A DNA stretch of 40,132 nt from Bacilli bacterium (lineage in GTDB: Bacteria > Bacillota_I > Bacilli_A > RF39 > UBA660): positions 1-40,132 of the forward strand of contig JAGHJJ010000082.1 of the NCBI GenBank assembly GCA_017886705.1. Direction: 5' to 3'. The position numbers were made by a program, and so were the translations under genes. Positions 15,881 through 24,814 of the stretch are shown one piece after another. Every line of letters starts with the position of its first letter. Within the stretch, counting starts at the first letter, position 1. The notes beneath the pieces were generated by a model. That model was not told the DNA's origin. It worked only from the letters and a program-made list of their open reading frames with translations, and ran no database searches.

Positions 15881-16374
15881 ATGAAAGTAAAACATATACT
15901 AAAACCAATTTATGATGAAAATTCTAAAGTTTTAATATTAGGAAGTCTTCCTTCCGTTAAATCAAGAGAAATAGGTTTTTATTATGGACATCCTAAAAAT
16001 AGATTCTGGTCCACATTAGAAAAAGTATTTGAAAAAAAATTGGTAACTCCAAAGAAGAAAAAATCAACTTTCTAAAAAAACATCATATTGCCTTATTTGA
16101 TGTAGTAAAAGAATGTGATATATCTTCATCAAGTGATGCATCCATTAAAAATGTAATACCAAACAATTTAAAACCAATATTAAAAAGTTCAAATATTAAA
16201 ACTATCTTTACAACTGGAACCAAAGCACACGAATTATATAAAAAGTATATCTAGCCAAAAACAAAAATAGAAGACATTACCCTTCCAAGTACATCTCCTG
16301 CGAACTGTAAAAAAGGAATAGAAGAACTATTAACTAAAGAATACAGAAAAATAAAAGAAAAATTAGATAGCTAA
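15881..16374 (+). pseudogene. DNA-deoxyinosine glycosylase (hypoxanthine-DNA glycosylase) pseudogene
   Basis: The first 50 or so codons read VLILGSLPSVKSREIGFYYG then HPKNRFWSTL, the signature of the UDG-superfamily hypoxanthine-DNA glycosylases. Near 16050-16070 the frame shifts by one. The other frame continues with HHIALFDVVKECDISSSSD, IKTIFTTGTKAHELYKKYI, then a TAG at about 16252 and LPSTSPANC with a C-terminal helix ending at TAA 16372-16374. Both halves together make a normal-length enzyme of about 160 residues, so this is a recent loss caused by one frameshift and one stop. The start overlaps the divergent upstream region of the DUF3298 gene. Confidence 0.85.
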
Positions 16375-16392
16375 CCTCTATCTAATTTTTTT
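16360..16392 (+). terminator. Bidirectional terminator between the glycosylase pseudogene and the HAM1-like gene
   Basis: An eleven-base stem, AAATTAGATAG and CTATCTAATTT, with a seven-base loop is followed by T residues on plus and, in reverse, also by T residues. Both convergent stop codons lie in the loop. Confidence 0.85.
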
Positions 16393-17348
16393 TGAAAAGA
16401 TTGTTGTAAAATTGGATTCATATCTAAAACTTTTTCTTGACTAACATCATCTTTGGCAGCTACTGCAAGATAAGCACCAAAACGATATCCTAATCCTATA
16501 GAATAAAAACGGTCATGATATTTTACTGTATAATAATTTATATCTATATCAGTACTAGAAGGAATATGGTAACGTTTAGAACATTTCTCAACATATTTAT
16601 AAATAAAATCTAAATAATCTAATTGTATATGGTCAAGCGGGGAAATTTCATAAGGACTATACAACCAATCAGTATTACGAAAAGAGGGATATATATCAGT
16701 AAAATCTTCTAACCAGTCAAAAAAATCAGCTACTTCTTCTTTATCAAATTTTTTATTATCAACTTTATTATTTCGATACCAATCTAAAAACTGAACAGTA
16801 GCACTATTTTTTCGAGTTTCTTTTTTATATTGTAACATCTCCTTAGAAGACATACCAGCAAGTGTAGAATGATATCCTTCTGGAATAAATACTTTCCATA
16901 ACTCAGATTTAGCATTATTCATATTTTCACCAGATACTTCTGTTGCAAGTTCACCTCGACTCTCACCAAAAAATTGTTGAAAACACTCTCCATCATAATA
17001 AGTAATACAATCAACAAACCTACAACTTCTATTATCTACATCTTTCATATCATCAAGTAATTTTTCTAAATTAGAACTTACTCCACTTCTTTTTACAAAA
17101 GCCCCAGGATATCCAGGCTGATTAGGATAATAGTCAATATAAAAACCAGTATCAGACACAAAACAAGGATATCCTAACTCCTGATAAGCATATTCCGCTT
17201 TCTTTTTAGAAATATAAGAAATATCATTTAAATCCGGTTCCGAAAAATCCAAAGAATAAAAAGAAACAGGAATATTCTTTGCCTGAGCATAATTTTTAAC
17301 AGAACTTATTTTACCAGAATTTCCAGAAACAAAAACTAACTCTTCCAT
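16371..17348 (-). CDS. HAM1/RdgB-like non-canonical NTP pyrophosphatase with C-terminal extension
   Basis: 325 residues. The first 200 match the ITPase family that hydrolyses ITP, dITP and XTP to monophosphates: FVSGNSGKISSV for nucleotide binding, CFVSDTGFYIDYYPNQPGYP with the metal-binding Asp, and ESRGEL and AGMSSKEMLQYKKETRKNS toward the end. Ordinary members stop near residue 195-200. Here a further 120 residues (FDWLEDFTDIYPSF, then YKYVEKCSKRYHIP and a beta-rich tail) form an extra domain I cannot identify. AAGGAG precedes the ATG, and the gene starts one base after the SIS gene's stop. Because it is embedded with SIS, WYL and Nudix genes, its substrate may be a modified or sugar-linked nucleotide; this is inference. 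Confidence 0.82.
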   Translation of the reverse strand: MEELVFVSGNSGKISSVKNYAQAKNIPVSFYSLDFSEPDLNDISYISKKKAEYAYQELGYPCFVSDTGFYIDYYPNQPGYPGAFVKRSGVSSNLEKLLDDMKDVDNRSCRFVDCITYYDGECFQQFFGESRGELATEVSGENMNNAKSELWKVFIPEGYHSTLAGMSSKEMLQYKKETRKNSATVQFLDWYRNNKVDNKKFDKEEVADFFDWLEDFTDIYPSFRNTDWLYSPYEISPLDHIQLDYLDFIYKYVEKCSKRYHIPSSTDIDINYYTVKYHDRFYSIGLGYRFGAYLAVAAKDDVSQEKVLDMNPILQQSFQKKLDRG

Positions 17349-18978: not shown

Positions 18979-19440
18979 CTATAAATACTCTTGATAATAT
19001 TTTTGAATCTTACTCCAATACTTCTCAGTCATAGGAGACAAATTACTAGGCATCTCTTTTAAAGAAAACCATCGTAATTCTCTAGACTCATCATCACCTA
19101 TTTTTAATGTTCCATGATACTTACAAACTTCAAAAACAGCCGTAATATCATATAACTTATCACCGTTAGGATATTCCCGGTAAGTATCTTTACCAGATAA
19201 TACTTCAAGTAACTTCATATCATCAATAATAAGTCCAGTCTCTTCTTCTAATTCTCGCTTTGCAGTCTCTTCAAAACTCTCTCCAAGTTCCATCGACCCG
19301 CCAGGAAATCCCCAGGAATTAAAATCTGTACGGAGTTCCATCAACACTTCATTCTTTTCATTAAAAACTAATAAACCAGTACCTGCCGTTAAAATTGGAT
19401 TATGTCCCACATACTGTCTTAAATATTGAATATATCCCAT
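18979..19440 (-). CDS. Nudix hydrolase
   Basis: 153 residues with a full Nudix box (GSMELGESFEETAKRELEEE followed by TGL), so it should be an active metal-dependent diphosphate hydrolase. The N-terminal VGHNPILTAGTGLLVFN and the later YPNGDKLYDITAVFEV match small cytosolic Nudix proteins acting on nucleotides or nucleotide sugars. The substrate is not determined. It is co-oriented with the WYL, SIS and HAM1-like genes downstream, 22 bases from the WYL gene. Confidence 0.93.
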   Translation of the reverse strand: MGYIQYLRQYVGHNPILTAGTGLLVFNEKNEVLMELRTDFNSWGFPGGSMELGESFEETAKRELEEETGLIIDDMKLLEVLSGKDTYREYPNGDKLYDITAVFEVCKYHGTLKIGDDESRELRWFSLKEMPSNLSPMTEKYWSKIQKYYQEYL

Positions 19441-19454
19441 ACTACCTCCAAAAA

Positions 19455-20177
19455 CTACTTTTTCATATACATTTTAGGAAAACTTTCTGCAACACTTAAA
19501 TCCCTATCATAAACATCATTATTTAGATTTTTATATTCTTCTACAACAGAAGAAGAAATAGGACTACCTAATTTATCAAAAATTTTCAATTCACTAATAT
19601 AACCAAAAGGCAAAGAAGGAAAAACAAGATTACCAAAACATAAAGCAATAGAATCAAAATAATTCATCATTTCATGATTTTCTTCTTGTAATTTACTAAG
19701 TGCAACAACCCTAGCTACATTATCTTTTCCAAAATCCGAAATTTTTGCTTTAGAATGAATTCTAGACATACCTTCTTTTAACTCTTGTTTCACTACTTTA
19801 TCACGCAATTTATATAAAGAAAAAAGGGAAGAAAAATGAAGACCTGCTAAAGCAAGCTCACTAAAAGTAAATCCGTTCAGTTGCTCATAAATATCTTCAT
19901 GATAAGGCTTTATATGACGATAAATACTCTCTGTAGTCCCTACTAATCCTCGACTAAAATCAAAAGTATAATCATCTAAATTACTACCTCTAGATTGAAT
20001 AATATCAAAATCTCTCTCAACAATACTATCAAAACCTTTTTTATAGATTCGTCTATCTATTTCTTTATCAATATCCTCTTTGGGAAATCTACTTTGCTCA
20101 CGATAAATAGCATAAAAAAGAAGTTTAGAAGTAGGAACAGTTTTTAAACTTAAGTTTTTAACATTCCAAAAACTCAT
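19455..20177 (-). CDS. Unknown protein, member 1 of a local three-paralogue family
   Basis: 240 residues from ATG 20177, preferred over 20192 because GGAGG sits eight bases upstream and the 20192 ATG overlaps that site. It shares with the next two genes an N-terminal NLSLKTVPTSKLL block, a middle SNLDDYTFD block, FTFSELALA near residue 105-115 and a Pro-containing C-terminus (ESFPKMYMKK). It is soluble and mainly helical, with no signal peptide and no known catalytic motif. It is the most divergent of the three. It lies 14 bases upstream of the Nudix gene. I do not recognise the family. Confidence 0.78.
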   Translation of the reverse strand: MSFWNVKNLSLKTVPTSKLLFYAIYREQSRFPKEDIDKEIDRRIYKKGFDSIVERDFDIIQSRGSNLDDYTFDFSRGLVGTTESIYRHIKPYHEDIYEQLNGFTFSELALAGLHFSSLFSLYKLRDKVVKQELKEGMSRIHSKAKISDFGKDNVARVVALSKLQEENHEMMNYFDSIALCFGNLVFPSLPFGYISELKIFDKLGSPISSSVVEEYKNLNNDVYDRDLSVAESFPKMYMKK

Positions 20178-20178
20178 A

Positions 20179-20907
20179 CTACTGTCCTCCATTTCTTCTC
20201 ATAAAAATACGTTCTGAATTAGGATATTTCTTAATTAATCTACGATCAATAGCTGTAGAATTTGGATTTAAAGCAACACCCGCTAAATCATCAGCAAGAA
20301 AAACATCTCTTCTTACTATCTTTTCATATTCATAATTACAAGCCTTCATTGCTTTAGAAATAGCTTGCTTAGAAGGTTGCAAAACACCAAGCCCATAATC
20401 AGCTTGCAAAAGAAAATACTCACAAGAAGTCTCTTTTAAAAAGCGAAAATAATCCACTAACTGTGCCTCTAAAGAACAATCTTCACGAGAACCATCTACA
20501 CTATTTTGTGATAAGTCTAATCTCATCTGATACTGACGTTCTAATTTATCAAAAAGAACAGGTAACATTGCTAACTCACTAAATGCTAAATGAGAAAAAC
20601 GTTTATATATATCAAAACCATAATCAATAGGTAAAAGATTTTTATAAACAATATTTAAAGTATCACTTAGAGTATGACCTGGCATAAAAGCATAATCTTC
20701 TTCTCTCTCTCCTCTTCTCTTAAATACTTTTTTATCACCTTTAATAATTTCCATAGAACGAAAAGGACTTAGTTTATATTTCTTTTCTAATCTATCCTTT
20801 AAAATTTTAGATGCTCTACTATCCTCTAAAAACATATCATCCTTATACACTGAAAATAAAATTTCAGAAGTAGGCATCATTTTTAAGTTTTTAACTAATT
20901 GACTCAT
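20179..20907 (-). CDS. Unknown protein, member 2 of the three-paralogue family
   Basis: 243 residues. The start is ATG 20907 after AGGAGG, rather than the 20937 ATG in the ORF track, which has no ribosome site. Family blocks are visible: VKNLKMMPTSEILF, RLEKKYKL, KRRGEREEDYAF, HLAFSELAML and IKKYPNSERIF. The last two are shared closely with member 3. Soluble, helical, function unknown. It has its own promoter immediately upstream and ends one base before the start of member 1, so those two are co-translated. Confidence 0.78.
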   Translation of the reverse strand: MSQLVKNLKMMPTSEILFSVYKDDMFLEDSRASKILKDRLEKKYKLSPFRSMEIIKGDKKVFKRRGEREEDYAFMPGHTLSDTLNIVYKNLLPIDYGFDIYKRFSHLAFSELAMLPVLFDKLERQYQMRLDLSQNSVDGSREDCSLEAQLVDYFRFLKETSCEYFLLQADYGLGVLQPSKQAISKAMKACNYEYEKIVRRDVFLADDLAGVALNPNSTAIDRRLIKKYPNSERIFMRRNGGQ

Positions 20908-20936
20908 AATTATCCTCCTGAATAAAACGTAAATCA

Positions 20937-20965
20937 ATCATAACACAAATATAAAATTATGTAAA
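20937..20965 (-). promoter_or_regulatory. Promoter upstream of paralogue 2
   Basis: TTTACA (plus 20960-20965) and TATGAT (plus 20937-20942) are spaced by 17 bases on the minus strand, about 30 bases before the chosen start. It lies just after the terminator of paralogue 3, so a new transcript running into the Nudix-WYL-SIS-HAM1 genes probably begins here. Confidence 0.7.
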
Positions 20966-20980
20966 CAAACGAAATTTTCA

Positions 20981-21006
20981 TTAAAAAAGACTCATTAAAG
21001 TCTTTT
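20981..21006 (-). terminator. Rho-independent terminator after paralogue 3
   Basis: AAAAGACT, a six-base loop and AGTCTTTT are followed by T residues; the stop codon is in the loop. It differs by one loop base from the core of the terminator at 5241-5271. Confidence 0.78.
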
Positions 21007-21702
21007 GTTTTTATAAATTTGCTCCATATTAGGATGTTTTTTTATTAATTGTATTTCTTTATCATAGGAATCACTATCATTCTCAAATGTATGCCATTCT
21101 TGACTCAACACAGAGCAAGGATTTTCATATAAAACAACCGTAGCAGCTCTAGTAACATCCTTAAAAGAAGGCCTAACAACAGAAGAATTATGATCTATTT
21201 TCTGAAGTAATCGAGAACGAGCTGCTAATTTCAAGAATCGATAATAATCCCTGATATTTTCTTCCTTACTTAAAGTTTGATAATCAGTATTCATTTTTTG
21301 TAATTTAGAATATTTAGTATTGTGAAAAGTTTCCAAATTACAAAATATTCCAATGGAAACAGCCAGTTCACTAAAAGTAAAATTTAAAAATCGCTTGGTA
21401 ACCAAAAACCATTGTTCATGCTCTTGTGGTTGAATATAATCGTATACAATATCTAATCTATCATATACATTAGTATCTTGACAAAAAGCATAATCACGAA
21501 CATTATCTCCTCTTTTAGAAAACACTTCATAATCTTGCTGAATAATTTTATCAATAGTATCAGCTCTCAGTTTATACTTTTTTTCTAATCTTCTCATAAA
21601 AGCACGAGAAACATCCTTATCTTTTAAAGAAATATCTCCTCGGTAATCAGCAAGTAAAATCTGCGAAGTAGGAGTCACCTTCAAATTTTTAATCATATCC
21701 AT
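20995..21702 (-). CDS. Unknown protein, member 3 of the three-paralogue family
   Basis: 235 residues from ATG 21702, which follows GGGAG at eight bases. Blocks in common with members 1 and 2: IKNLKVTPTSQIL, RRLEKKYKL, SKRGDNVRDYAF, FLNFTFSELAVS and IKKHPNMEQIY. Mostly helical, no membrane segment, no catalytic signature. It follows the copper operon by 47 bases and is closed by its own terminator. Family not recognised; the repeated N- and C-terminal blocks suggest a conserved binding role. Confidence 0.78.
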   Translation of the reverse strand: MDMIKNLKVTPTSQILLADYRGDISLKDKDVSRAFMRRLEKKYKLRADTIDKIIQQDYEVFSKRGDNVRDYAFCQDTNVYDRLDIVYDYIQPQEHEQWFLVTKRFLNFTFSELAVSIGIFCNLETFHNTKYSKLQKMNTDYQTLSKEENIRDYYRFLKLAARSRLLQKIDHNSSVVRPSFKDVTRAATVVLYENPCSVLSQEWHTFENDSDSYDKEIQLIKKHPNMEQIYKNKRL

Positions 21703-21749: not shown

Positions 21750-21962
21750 CTATTCCAAAGTAAATCCTAACGCTTCTATCTTATCTTGGAACACAGAATC
21801 ATCAATATCCTTTGTTAGTACCAAATCTGCTTTCTTATCTTCTAAACTAACAGAACAAGATTTTACTCCAGGAATAGCAGATAAAACATTTTTAACACGA
21901 TTAACACAACCTTCACATTTCATCCCTTCTATATAAATAGTTTTATTTATTTTCTTAAACAT
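21750..21962 (-). CDS. copZ: CopZ-like copper chaperone (HMA domain)
   Basis: 70 residues, a single heavy-metal-associated domain. The metal-binding loop is GMKCEGC (M-x-C-x-x-C), and the fold pattern (VKNVLSAIPGVKSCSVSLEDKKADLVL) is standard. It carries Cu(I) in the cytosol and delivers it to CopA. Last gene of the csoR-copA-VOC-copZ run. Confidence 0.92.
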   Translation of the reverse strand: MFKKINKTIYIEGMKCEGCVNRVKNVLSAIPGVKSCSVSLEDKKADLVLTKDIDDSVFQDKIEALGFTLE

Positions 21963-21972
21963 AAAAATCCTC

Positions 21973-22365
21973 CTAATTTGTAAATCTTAATAAATATCCA
22001 TCTAAATCTTGAATTAGAAACTGTTTATCAGAATAAACCTTATCATCTACTAAGTACTCATCTATTTGCATATCACGAAATATGGGATAATGATTTTTCT
22101 GAACCAAGTCGTAAATCTTATCAATATCATTAACTTCCATACTAATATTAATTCCTCTTCCATAAGGATATTCTAACTCTCCCGTATTCCAATGATCATT
22201 TACTTCTTCAATCATAAGTTGATTACCATCTAACTCTAAAAAACAGAATTTATCCTCAACTCTCTCATAGACAATCGAAAATCCTATAGATAAGTAAAAC
22301 TCTTTACTTTTATTAATATCAGAAACACTAAGTTCTGGTATTAATTTATTAAACTTCACTTCCAT
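21973..22365 (-). CDS. VOC-family (glyoxalase/bleomycin-resistance-like) protein
   Basis: 130 residues from ATG 22365, which overlaps the copA stop as TAATG. LIPELSVSDINKSKEFYLSI, then FCFLELDGNQLMIEE and FLIQDLDGYLLRF, are the paired beta-alpha-beta-beta-beta units of bleomycin-resistance-type proteins. It may bind or sequester a small molecule. Insertion between copA and copZ is unusual and implies co-expression under copper stress; the ligand is unknown. Confidence 0.85.
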   Translation of the reverse strand: MEVKFNKLIPELSVSDINKSKEFYLSIGFSIVYERVEDKFCFLELDGNQLMIEEVNDHWNTGELEYPYGRGINISMEVNDIDKIYDLVQKNHYPIFRDMQIDEYLVDDKVYSDKQFLIQDLDGYLLRFTN

Positions 22366-24539
22366 TATCTCACCATCCATCTAAGTCTTAATGAATTAAA
22401 AACAACAGTTAAACTACTAATAGTCATAAAAATACTAGCAAGCATAGGATTTAAAACAATGCCAAATGGTTCTAATAATCCTGCTGCAACTGGTATCATA
22501 CATACATTATAGAAAAATGCCCAGAACAAATTTTCTTTAATAACACGATTAGACTTACGACTAATATCAATAAAATCTAATAAATTAGATAAATTATGAT
22601 TCATCAAAATAACATCACTAGCATCACTAGCAACATCAGTGCCATCGCTAATACTAATACCAACAGTAGCTTCTACTAACGCAACAGCATCATTCACACC
22701 ATCACCAACCATGACAACTTTATTACCTGAAGCAACAAATCCTTGAATAATAGAAGCTTTATCTTTCGGTAAGACATCAGCATGAATCTCACTAATTCCT
22801 AATTCCTTCGCAACAATTCTAGCCGTATCTAAATTATCTCCAGTAAGCATCACCGTAGTAATACCTAAACTCTCTAAACGAGAAATAACATTTTTCATAT
22901 CAGGACGAGCAGTATCACGAACACCAATTAATCCAACAACTTCCTTCTCTTTTACTAAATATAAAATACTACAACCTGCACTGACTAATTCCTTATAATC
23001 CTTCTCATGAAAATCACTAATTCCTAACTTTTTAAGTAATTTTTTATTTCCAACATAATAATGCTCAGAATCAATCACTCCTTCAATTCCCATACCAGGA
23101 ATATCAGAAAAATCTGAAACAGGAAGCAAAGCCTTCTTAGAAAATGCAGAAGCAATAGGATGAGTAGAAAAGCTTTCTAAACTTTCCACTACTCTCAAAA
23201 TAGAATAAGAATTATCAAGATAAGAAAATACTTGGTATACTTGCAACTTTCCATAAGTAAGAGTACCTGTCTTATCAAATACTACTCTATCTACTTGCCG
23301 CATCTCTTCTAATACATCTCCCGATTTCACAATCACGCCTACTTTAGCACAAAGACCATAACTGAGGCTAATAACTAATGGAACAGCAAGACCCAGTGCA
23401 CAAGGACAAGCAATTACTAACACCGTAACAAAAGCATGAAAACTAGCTGCAAAGCCAAATCCTAGTAATAGCTTAATAACAAAAGTAATAATAGACACCA
23501 AAACAATAAATGGTACAAAATAACTACTAATCTTATCAGCAATTCTCTCTATTTTATTCTTCTTTCCTAAAGATTCAACAACCATACTAACAATACTAGA
23601 AACAGTAGACTCTTTACCAATTTTCTTTGCTTTATACAGAACTACACCATCATAATTCATAGAACCAGCAAGCACCGTACTACCTTTCTTCTTTAATACC
23701 GGTACACTCTCTCCTGTAATAAACGCCTCATCTGCATAAGACTCTCCATCAACAACTTCACCATCAACCGCAAACTTCTCTTGAGGACGACAAACTAAAA
23801 TATCATCCATTTCAATTTCATCTAACGTAACAGAAACGAAATCATCACCCTTTTTCATAACAGCTGTTTTAGGAGTAATTGTCACTAAATTCTGAATCGC
23901 GCTAGTAGTCTTATTCTTACTAATATTCTCAATAAATCTACCTAGTTTTACAAAATAAATTACCATCGCAACAGACTCAAAATATAACTCATGTAAAAAC
24001 AAAGTATTACCTAAACATATCTCTATAAAACTATAAATACTATAAGAAAGACTAAAAAACACACTAAAAAGGACCAGAGTATCCATATTAGGCATACGAT
24101 GTATCAAATTCAACAATCCACTTTTTAAAATATCAAAACCATAGATTACAAAAAAAGAAGAAATAAATAATAATATCAAACTATATAAAACAGGATATTC
24201 CATAGGAGAAAATATCTCTGGTAAAGATAACATATGTCCCATGGAAACATACATCAATAAAATAAGCAAAATAGCAAAAATAAGTAAATTACGTTTTTCT
24301 AGTTTATACACTTTACTATCATCAGTATAAGAATACTCTCCCGGGCTAGAAAAACCTGCTTGTGAAATATACTTCTGCAACTGTTCAATAGATAAGTCAT
24401 CATATTCTACCGTAACCATTCCCAAAATCAAATTAACAGAGGCAGAAAATATTCCTGTCTGCTTCATCAAATATTTCTCAAGTCCGCTAGAGCAAGCACT
24501 ACAAGTCATACCATCTACCTTTAATTGCACCTTTTTCAT
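22365..24539 (-). CDS. copA: Copper-exporting P1B-type ATPase
   Basis: 724 residues. One N-terminal HMA domain has GMTCSAC (Cys 13 and 16). There are about eight membrane helices, with the CPC metal site at residues 378-380, the TGES actuator loop at about 275, the phosphorylation loop DKTGTLT at about 422, the HPIA motif, and TGDN and GDGVNDA in the ATP-binding and hinge region. This is the full P1B-1 set and predicts ATP-driven export of Cu(I) from the cytosol. It follows csoR with a four-base overlap and is therefore controlled by the operator upstream of csoR. Confidence 0.97.
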   Translation of the reverse strand: MKKVQLKVDGMTCSACSSGLEKYLMKQTGIFSASVNLILGMVTVEYDDLSIEQLQKYISQAGFSSPGEYSYTDDSKVYKLEKRNLLIFAILLILLMYVSMGHMLSLPEIFSPMEYPVLYSLILLFISSFFVIYGFDILKSGLLNLIHRMPNMDTLVLFSVFFSLSYSIYSFIEICLGNTLFLHELYFESVAMVIYFVKLGRFIENISKNKTTSAIQNLVTITPKTAVMKKGDDFVSVTLDEIEMDDILVCRPQEKFAVDGEVVDGESYADEAFITGESVPVLKKKGSTVLAGSMNYDGVVLYKAKKIGKESTVSSIVSMVVESLGKKNKIERIADKISSYFVPFIVLVSIITFVIKLLLGFGFAASFHAFVTVLVIACPCALGLAVPLVISLSYGLCAKVGVIVKSGDVLEEMRQVDRVVFDKTGTLTYGKLQVYQVFSYLDNSYSILRVVESLESFSTHPIASAFSKKALLPVSDFSDIPGMGIEGVIDSEHYYVGNKKLLKKLGISDFHEKDYKELVSAGCSILYLVKEKEVVGLIGVRDTARPDMKNVISRLESLGITTVMLTGDNLDTARIVAKELGISEIHADVLPKDKASIIQGFVASGNKVVMVGDGVNDAVALVEATVGISISDGTDVASDASDVILMNHNLSNLLDFIDISRKSNRVIKENLFWAFFYNVCMIPVAAGLLEPFGIVLNPMLASIFMTISSLTVVFNSLRLRWMVR

Positions 24540-24814
24540 GAAGAATACCTCCTAAATAATTGCATTACTTCATCAACAACCTCTAAATTTCCCTCTGACA
24601 CTTCTTTTTTTATACAAGAATACATATGCTTTTCTAAAATAACAGAAGATAAACTTTTTACTGCCTTATCCACAGCCAAAAGTTGTGTTAATAAATCATC
24701 ACAGTACCGGTCTTCCTCTATCATTTTTTTAATACCTTCTACCTGACCAGAAATACGATTCAATCTATGAATCAATTGCTTCTTTTCTTCTTCCGTTCGA
24801 TAAGTTTTCCTCAT
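24536..24814 (-). CDS. csoR: CsoR-family copper-sensing repressor
   Basis: 92 residues, all-helical. The Cu(I) ligands of CsoR are present as Cys 38 (RYCDDLL) and His 63 with Cys 67 (LEKHMYSC), rather than the RcnR or FrmR patterns, so copper is the probable signal. It represses the operon in the absence of Cu and is released when Cu binds. It is first in the operon, and its promoter contains a matching operator. Confidence 0.94.
   Translation of the reverse strand: MRKTYRTEEEKKQLIHRLNRISGQVEGIKKMIEEDRYCDDLLTQLLAVDKAVKSLSSVILEKHMYSCIKKEVSEGNLEVVDEVMQLFRRYSS

Follow-up and report, generated by a model that had tools for sequence, protein, structure and literature searches.

Three adjacent genes, here called P1, P2 and P3, in the 40,132-nt stretch of DNA that was analysed (the window) belong to an undescribed protein family, with no match to a known domain, fold or defence family. 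The gut Bacilli family in which they occur has been little studied, and it gains with them a protein family whose core is strictly conserved and for which no structural match was found. The conserved core, taken with broken copies, clean loss of single genes and nearly identical copies at unrelated sites, marks it as a candidate for a conflict-type function, one that a single small gene would suffice to test.

Three paralogues beside a copper cassette

P1, P2 and P3 are members 3, 2 and 1, respectively, of the initial annotation, which had taken them to be paralogues of an unrecognised family. This reading is borne out by pairwise blastp E-values in the 1e-33 to 1e-10 range and by the lack of a match to any known family. 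P1 and P2 match at E = 1e-33, with 34% identity across 234 aa; P1 and P3 match at E = 9e-12, and P2 and P3 at E = 6e-10. Because these values are significant, the blocks that the initial annotation had read in all three proteins, K-N-L-(K/S)..PTS..L, DY(A/T)F and FSELA, are not chance resemblances; the ending IKK(H/Y)PN.E.I occurs in P1 and P2 only, again as described. A profile built from the three genes, a check proposed at that stage, found relatives in other genera, rebuilt profiles recovered further ones, and a profile with such relatives, in which all three proteins were included, matched P1, P2 and P3 each at E < 1e-70.

Table 1 Features of the P1–P3 region and of its surroundings in the window
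Feature	Position	Strand	Length	Description
Ham1/dITP pyrophosphatase gene	16371–17348		325 aa	Ham1 domain at residues 4–173
Nudix hydrolase gene	18979..19440	(-)		directly after P3
P3	19455..20177	(-)	240 aa	family member in a separate clade; fastest diverging
P2	20179..20907	(-)	242 aa	family member
Promoter-like site before P2	20937..20965	(-)		sigma-70-type TTTACA-17-TATGAT, extended -10 (TG before -10); consensus match only
Hairpin and U-run after P1	20985..21006 (approx.)	(-)		probable intrinsic terminator, -9 kcal/mol, z = -2.6
P1	20995..21702	(-)	235 aa	family member; copper operon probably ends here
copZ	21750–21962	(-)		name read from sequence
VOC protein gene	21973–22380	(-)		name read from sequence
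copA, P-type ATPase gene	22365–24539	(-)		name read from sequence
csoR	24536–24814	(-)		name read from sequence
Promoter-like site upstream of the csoR cassette	24858–24830	(-)		11/12 consensus match

The csoR-copA-VOC-copZ cassette (21750..24814, minus strand) lies upstream of P1 and forms one border of a variable slot. Only 47 nt, with no terminator or hairpin, separate copZ from P1, so that the operon formed by this cassette probably ends with P1. The initial annotation had assigned P1 a terminator of its own, and the predicted folding of the hairpin that follows the gene supports this assignment; a consensus terminator scan passed over the hairpin, as just two of its base pairs are G-C. 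P2 and P3 had been proposed to share a promoter and to run into the Nudix gene. Consistent with this proposal, a good -35/-10 pair precedes P2, as judged by its match to the consensus in a region whose promoter-like sites as a whole show no excess over shuffled sequences. Only 1 nt separates P2 from P3, and 14 nt P3 from the Nudix gene, and the three genes are predicted to form a second transcription unit. A search of Rfam for an RNA leader or riboswitch gave no match. The Ham1/dITP pyrophosphatase gene of the window is longer than its counterparts in genomes G015 and G008, which encode 211–214 aa, and thus carries a C-terminal extension.

Conserved core, predicted fold and distribution

The family has two clear branches, the window type (P1–P3) and a second type exemplified by G000:C32, a fourth member encoded in this genome. 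A profile–profile comparison matched the two over ~110 columns (E = 7.5e-10). Among 32 diverse members, S111 and E112 (P1 numbering) are invariant, and S13, R38, R64, G65 and Y71 are kept in at least 30 of the 32 aligned rows. The family alignment contains neither a conserved Cys or His pattern nor a catalytic-looking set of conserved residues, and the conserved residues may be structural.

Pfam, NCBIfam and PHROGs yielded nothing significant for P1–P3 (best E = 0.04, for P1, far below the cut-off), PADLOC gave no match to these three proteins, and a sequence search of the PDB found no significant match. When the 32 members were searched with PADLOC, no defence model was matched beyond a single AbiEi stretch of 42 residues; this stretch is helical, occurs in one of the 32 members (E = 2e-4) and is taken as a chance match rather than a relationship. 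AlphaFold2 models of P1 (pLDDT 78, pTM 0.80) and of one distantly related second-branch protein (pLDDT 81, pTM 0.79) are both all-helical, and their N-terminal helices follow the same order. For both of these deeply split branches, an all-helical fold class is confidently predicted. With Foldseek E < 0.001 or a TM-score > 0.5 as the criterion for a known fold, neither model matched the PDB or viral models (best E 0.3, TM < 0.5).

Members were found in 26 of 367 genomes (~7%) of the GTDB family, distributed over 18 of its 150 genera. All members in the order sample and in the class sample came from this same GTDB family, and the phylum sample returned only this genome itself. Relatives that carry a name are Bacilli or Erysipelotrichaceae MAGs, several of them apparently gut-derived. 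In the samples searched, the family is so far confined to one GTDB family of gut Bacilli; the single genome-contig scan used a second-branch query. A phage or plasmid origin was considered and rejected, as the searches made found no member in phage records, plasmids or viral contigs (IMG/VR).

Descent, turnover and relocation

In the tree, P1 and P2 group with the copies that occur singly in G001, G002 and G008 (support 94/91), and P3 falls in its own clade (100/100) among members from other genera, where its placement is without resolution. The best match of P3 outside the genus, in G360 (E = 1e-24), scores higher than P1 or P2 does. A single recent duplication therefore did not produce all three genes, as the tree and BLAST rule this origin out for P3. 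Of the initial view that adjacent copies had diverged rapidly, the strong divergence stands, but the simple picture of neighbours derived from one local duplication does not. Elsewhere, members are mostly single genes outside any array. A second tandem pair, strongly diverged from all other members, is present in another genus (L088:7075-8744, G223).

Between G000 and G014, dN/dS is 0.18 for P1, 0.21 for P2 and 0.49 for P3, compared with 0.03–0.17 for neighbouring genes. P1 and P2, at ~0.2, are under clear constraint between these close species. For P3, the between-species values of 0.49–0.55 are raised but below 1 and are highest in the C-terminal part (0.7–0.8); P1 has no such C-terminal excess. 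A signal of positive selection (dN/dS > 1) was not seen in between-species comparisons, and values near 1 against G001 and G008 are an artefact of comparing saturated, non-orthologous copies. The rate of P3 reflects raised or relaxed evolution, short of proof for diversifying selection.

The gap between copZ and the Nudix gene is an unusually variable slot. Within one genus it holds three copies, or one diverged copy, or a sigma-like gene, between well-conserved flanks. All three genes are present in G014, where they are 95%, 95% and 85% identical to P1, P2 and P3. G003 has counterparts of P1 (87% identity) and P3 (63% identity) and a broken second copy. A single copy is present in G001 and in G008, only 27–33% identical to any of P1–P3, although their Nudix proteins are 86–89% and their other flanking proteins 71–97% identical. 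The G008 copy is frameshifted. For the G001 copy alone, the identity to P1–P3 is 27–30% and that of the flanking proteins 83–97%; its synonymous distance is 0.8–0.9, as against 0.2–0.5 for the flanks, suggesting that old copies were replaced or sorted rather than that one changed fast in place. G015 has no family member in the slot and carries a 685-aa sigma-like gene instead, and the G008 slot holds both a family copy and a sigma-like gene. These sigma-like proteins of 678–685 aa (L133:6196-8253 in G015 and L082:6288-8324 in G008, both between copZ and the Nudix gene) have sigma-70 region 2 and region 4 ~350 residues apart (Pfam E 1e-5 to 1e-2), and the gene was found in only 2 of the 16 genomes of the genus. 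The gap is thus marked as a variable slot that also houses a sigma-like protein with a long insert.

At the C32 locus, the family gene is cleanly missing from the sister genome G014, in which the leader and the Nudix gene are both intact. Broken copies number at least eight: those in G002, G008, G131, G218 and G419, the second copy of G003, L105, and L106 (the same sequence as G124:C75); some of them could be assembly errors. Rapid turnover of these genes shows across relatives as loss, breakage and variable content of the slot.

The family gene also relocates, on its own and accompanied only by its promoter region. Second-branch copies with 85–92% DNA identity lie at unrelated places, and their similarity ends ~25–200 nt outside the gene; nucleotide identity is 90% for L093/L094, 92% for L097/L099, 91% for L095/L096 and 85% for L098/L106, with unrelated flanks in each case. 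L093 and L094 also resemble each other over ~200 nt upstream, a stretch that may contain the end of a neighbouring gene since lost; an ancestral common site with later rearrangement is therefore possible for this pair. A transposon-like unit was rejected, as the ends of the relocated units show no shared terminal repeats and no target duplication. Relocation is not frequent everywhere, and the gene stays put within several genera: L103, L104 and L105 have their entire neighbourhood in common, so the gene was inherited in place, and it also keeps one place in L069/L141/L144.

Possible functions of the family

At 44 loci, the neighbours are mostly housekeeping genes, such as pfl, ftsY, rpsD, ezrA, uvrC, murG, tdk, recG and typA (ten identities were checked by Pfam, the rest read from sequence). 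No toxin, secretion, partner, recombinase or defence gene recurs beside the family across these loci. The initial suggestion that each copy handles a different partner, as in recognition or immunity-like families, gains no support from these neighbours or from the searches for an LXG toxin and for known immunity and defence families. Those neighbours that do recur are metal genes, Nudix genes, M16 proteases and some housekeeping genes, mostly because the loci share ancestry.

When a small single gene is gained, lost, broken and moved quickly while its core stays under constraint, it shows a pattern typical of conflict accessory genes. On this ground, our best explanation, offered tentatively, is that the family consists of solitary, cytosolic, all-helical accessory proteins of the conflict type. 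The N-terminal half, with S13, R38, R64-G65, Y71 and S111-E112, would do a common job by binding a host component, and the variable C-terminal helices would set specificity; a role in protecting against phage, mobile elements or the toxins of rivals would favour fast gain, loss and change. Against this reading stand the mainly housekeeping neighbours, the lack of hits in phages, plasmids and viral contigs, the lack of a catalytic-looking residue set, the constraint on P1 and P2, the even rate along P1, and the genera in which the gene stays in place. Abi-type solitary genes are likewise single accessory genes, sporadic within a lineage and often lost, and family members resemble them in all these respects. 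Unlike them, the family has no PADLOC match beyond the chance AbiEi stretch, no defence neighbours and no conserved His of the HEPN kind.

The Nudix and metal-gene leads were both noticed after the fact and are weak. It is unlikely that the family protein forms a two-gene module with the Nudix hydrolase, in which the helical protein would sense or hold a factor and the Nudix enzyme would remove or make a nucleotide or ADP-ribose signal. In this genome a Nudix gene comes directly after each of the two family loci, and these two Nudix genes, in the window and at G000:C32, are of one subfamily (55% identical); the G001 and G008 slots keep the adjacency, and in G014:C28 genes for a CD-NTase (SMODS) and a 4TM effector, with a recombinase close by, precede a Nudix gene whose product is 65% identical to that of the window. 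Yet such a Nudix gene stands beside no other family member and remains where the family gene is missing (G014:C2 and G015); two Nudix-adjacent cases among ~30 independent loci carry little weight when each genome has several Nudix genes.

A role in copper or metal stress, with P1 co-transcribed with csoR-copA-copZ and the family assisting metal handling or signalling metal stress, is decidedly unlikely. In addition to the position of P1 after copZ, a csoR-copZ-like-copA operon starts 426 bp from an independent member of the second branch (L094) and runs divergently from it, and a csoR-like gene lies 2.2 kb from the member at L102. Against this, metal genes are absent from the surroundings of most members, G015 carries the copper genes and no family member, the conserved residues include no Cys/His pattern, and the association was spotted post hoc among many neighbours.

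Strings of T7SS immunity genes in Firmicutes (EsaG, TsaI DUF443, TipC) are made up of adjacent paralogues that differ from one another, sharing conserved blocks and varying elsewhere, and some copies have no cognate toxin (PMC9484751). P1–P3 are similarly tandem and non-identical, with conserved blocks, a variable rest and no recognised toxin beside them, and the quick turnover and broken copies of the family also fit this pattern. An orphan immunity function against rivals' toxins, comparable to that of the staphylococcal esaG and tsaI strings, is nonetheless quite improbable: the proteins have no sequence match to Pfam immunity families, no toxin was recognised beside any member, no LXG toxin was found in this genome (77% complete), and members in relatives are mostly solitary.

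It is very doubtful that these genes represent a new anti-phage or anti-mobile-element family, whose new helical fold, single self-promoted genes and diverged arrays would be joined at some loci by a Nudix hydrolase as nucleotide-signal partner. The family resembles lineage-restricted ORFan families of host-associated Bacilli in its restriction to one bacterial family, lack of a domain match and high turnover, and differs from them in its strict conserved core, confident fold model and relocation with only its own promoter region. A nearly neutral ORFan family of marginal role, kept by chance and decaying, would account for the broken copies, sporadic presence and clean loss, but is very unlikely, as intact frames and a strict core across ~18 genera and the dN/dS of P1 and P2 show selection.

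Two of the loci examined have features of their own. At L094:854-4711, csoR and genes for a copZ-like protein and a membrane protein form one operon with copA, divergent from the family member. L134:181-3614 (G014:C28) resembles a CBASS locus that also has Nudix genes: it encodes a CD-NTase (SMODS, E = 8e-45), a 4TM effector (PADLOC E = 3e-54), the 65% identical Nudix protein and a PHP-Nudix protein, and a recombinase gene lies nearby.
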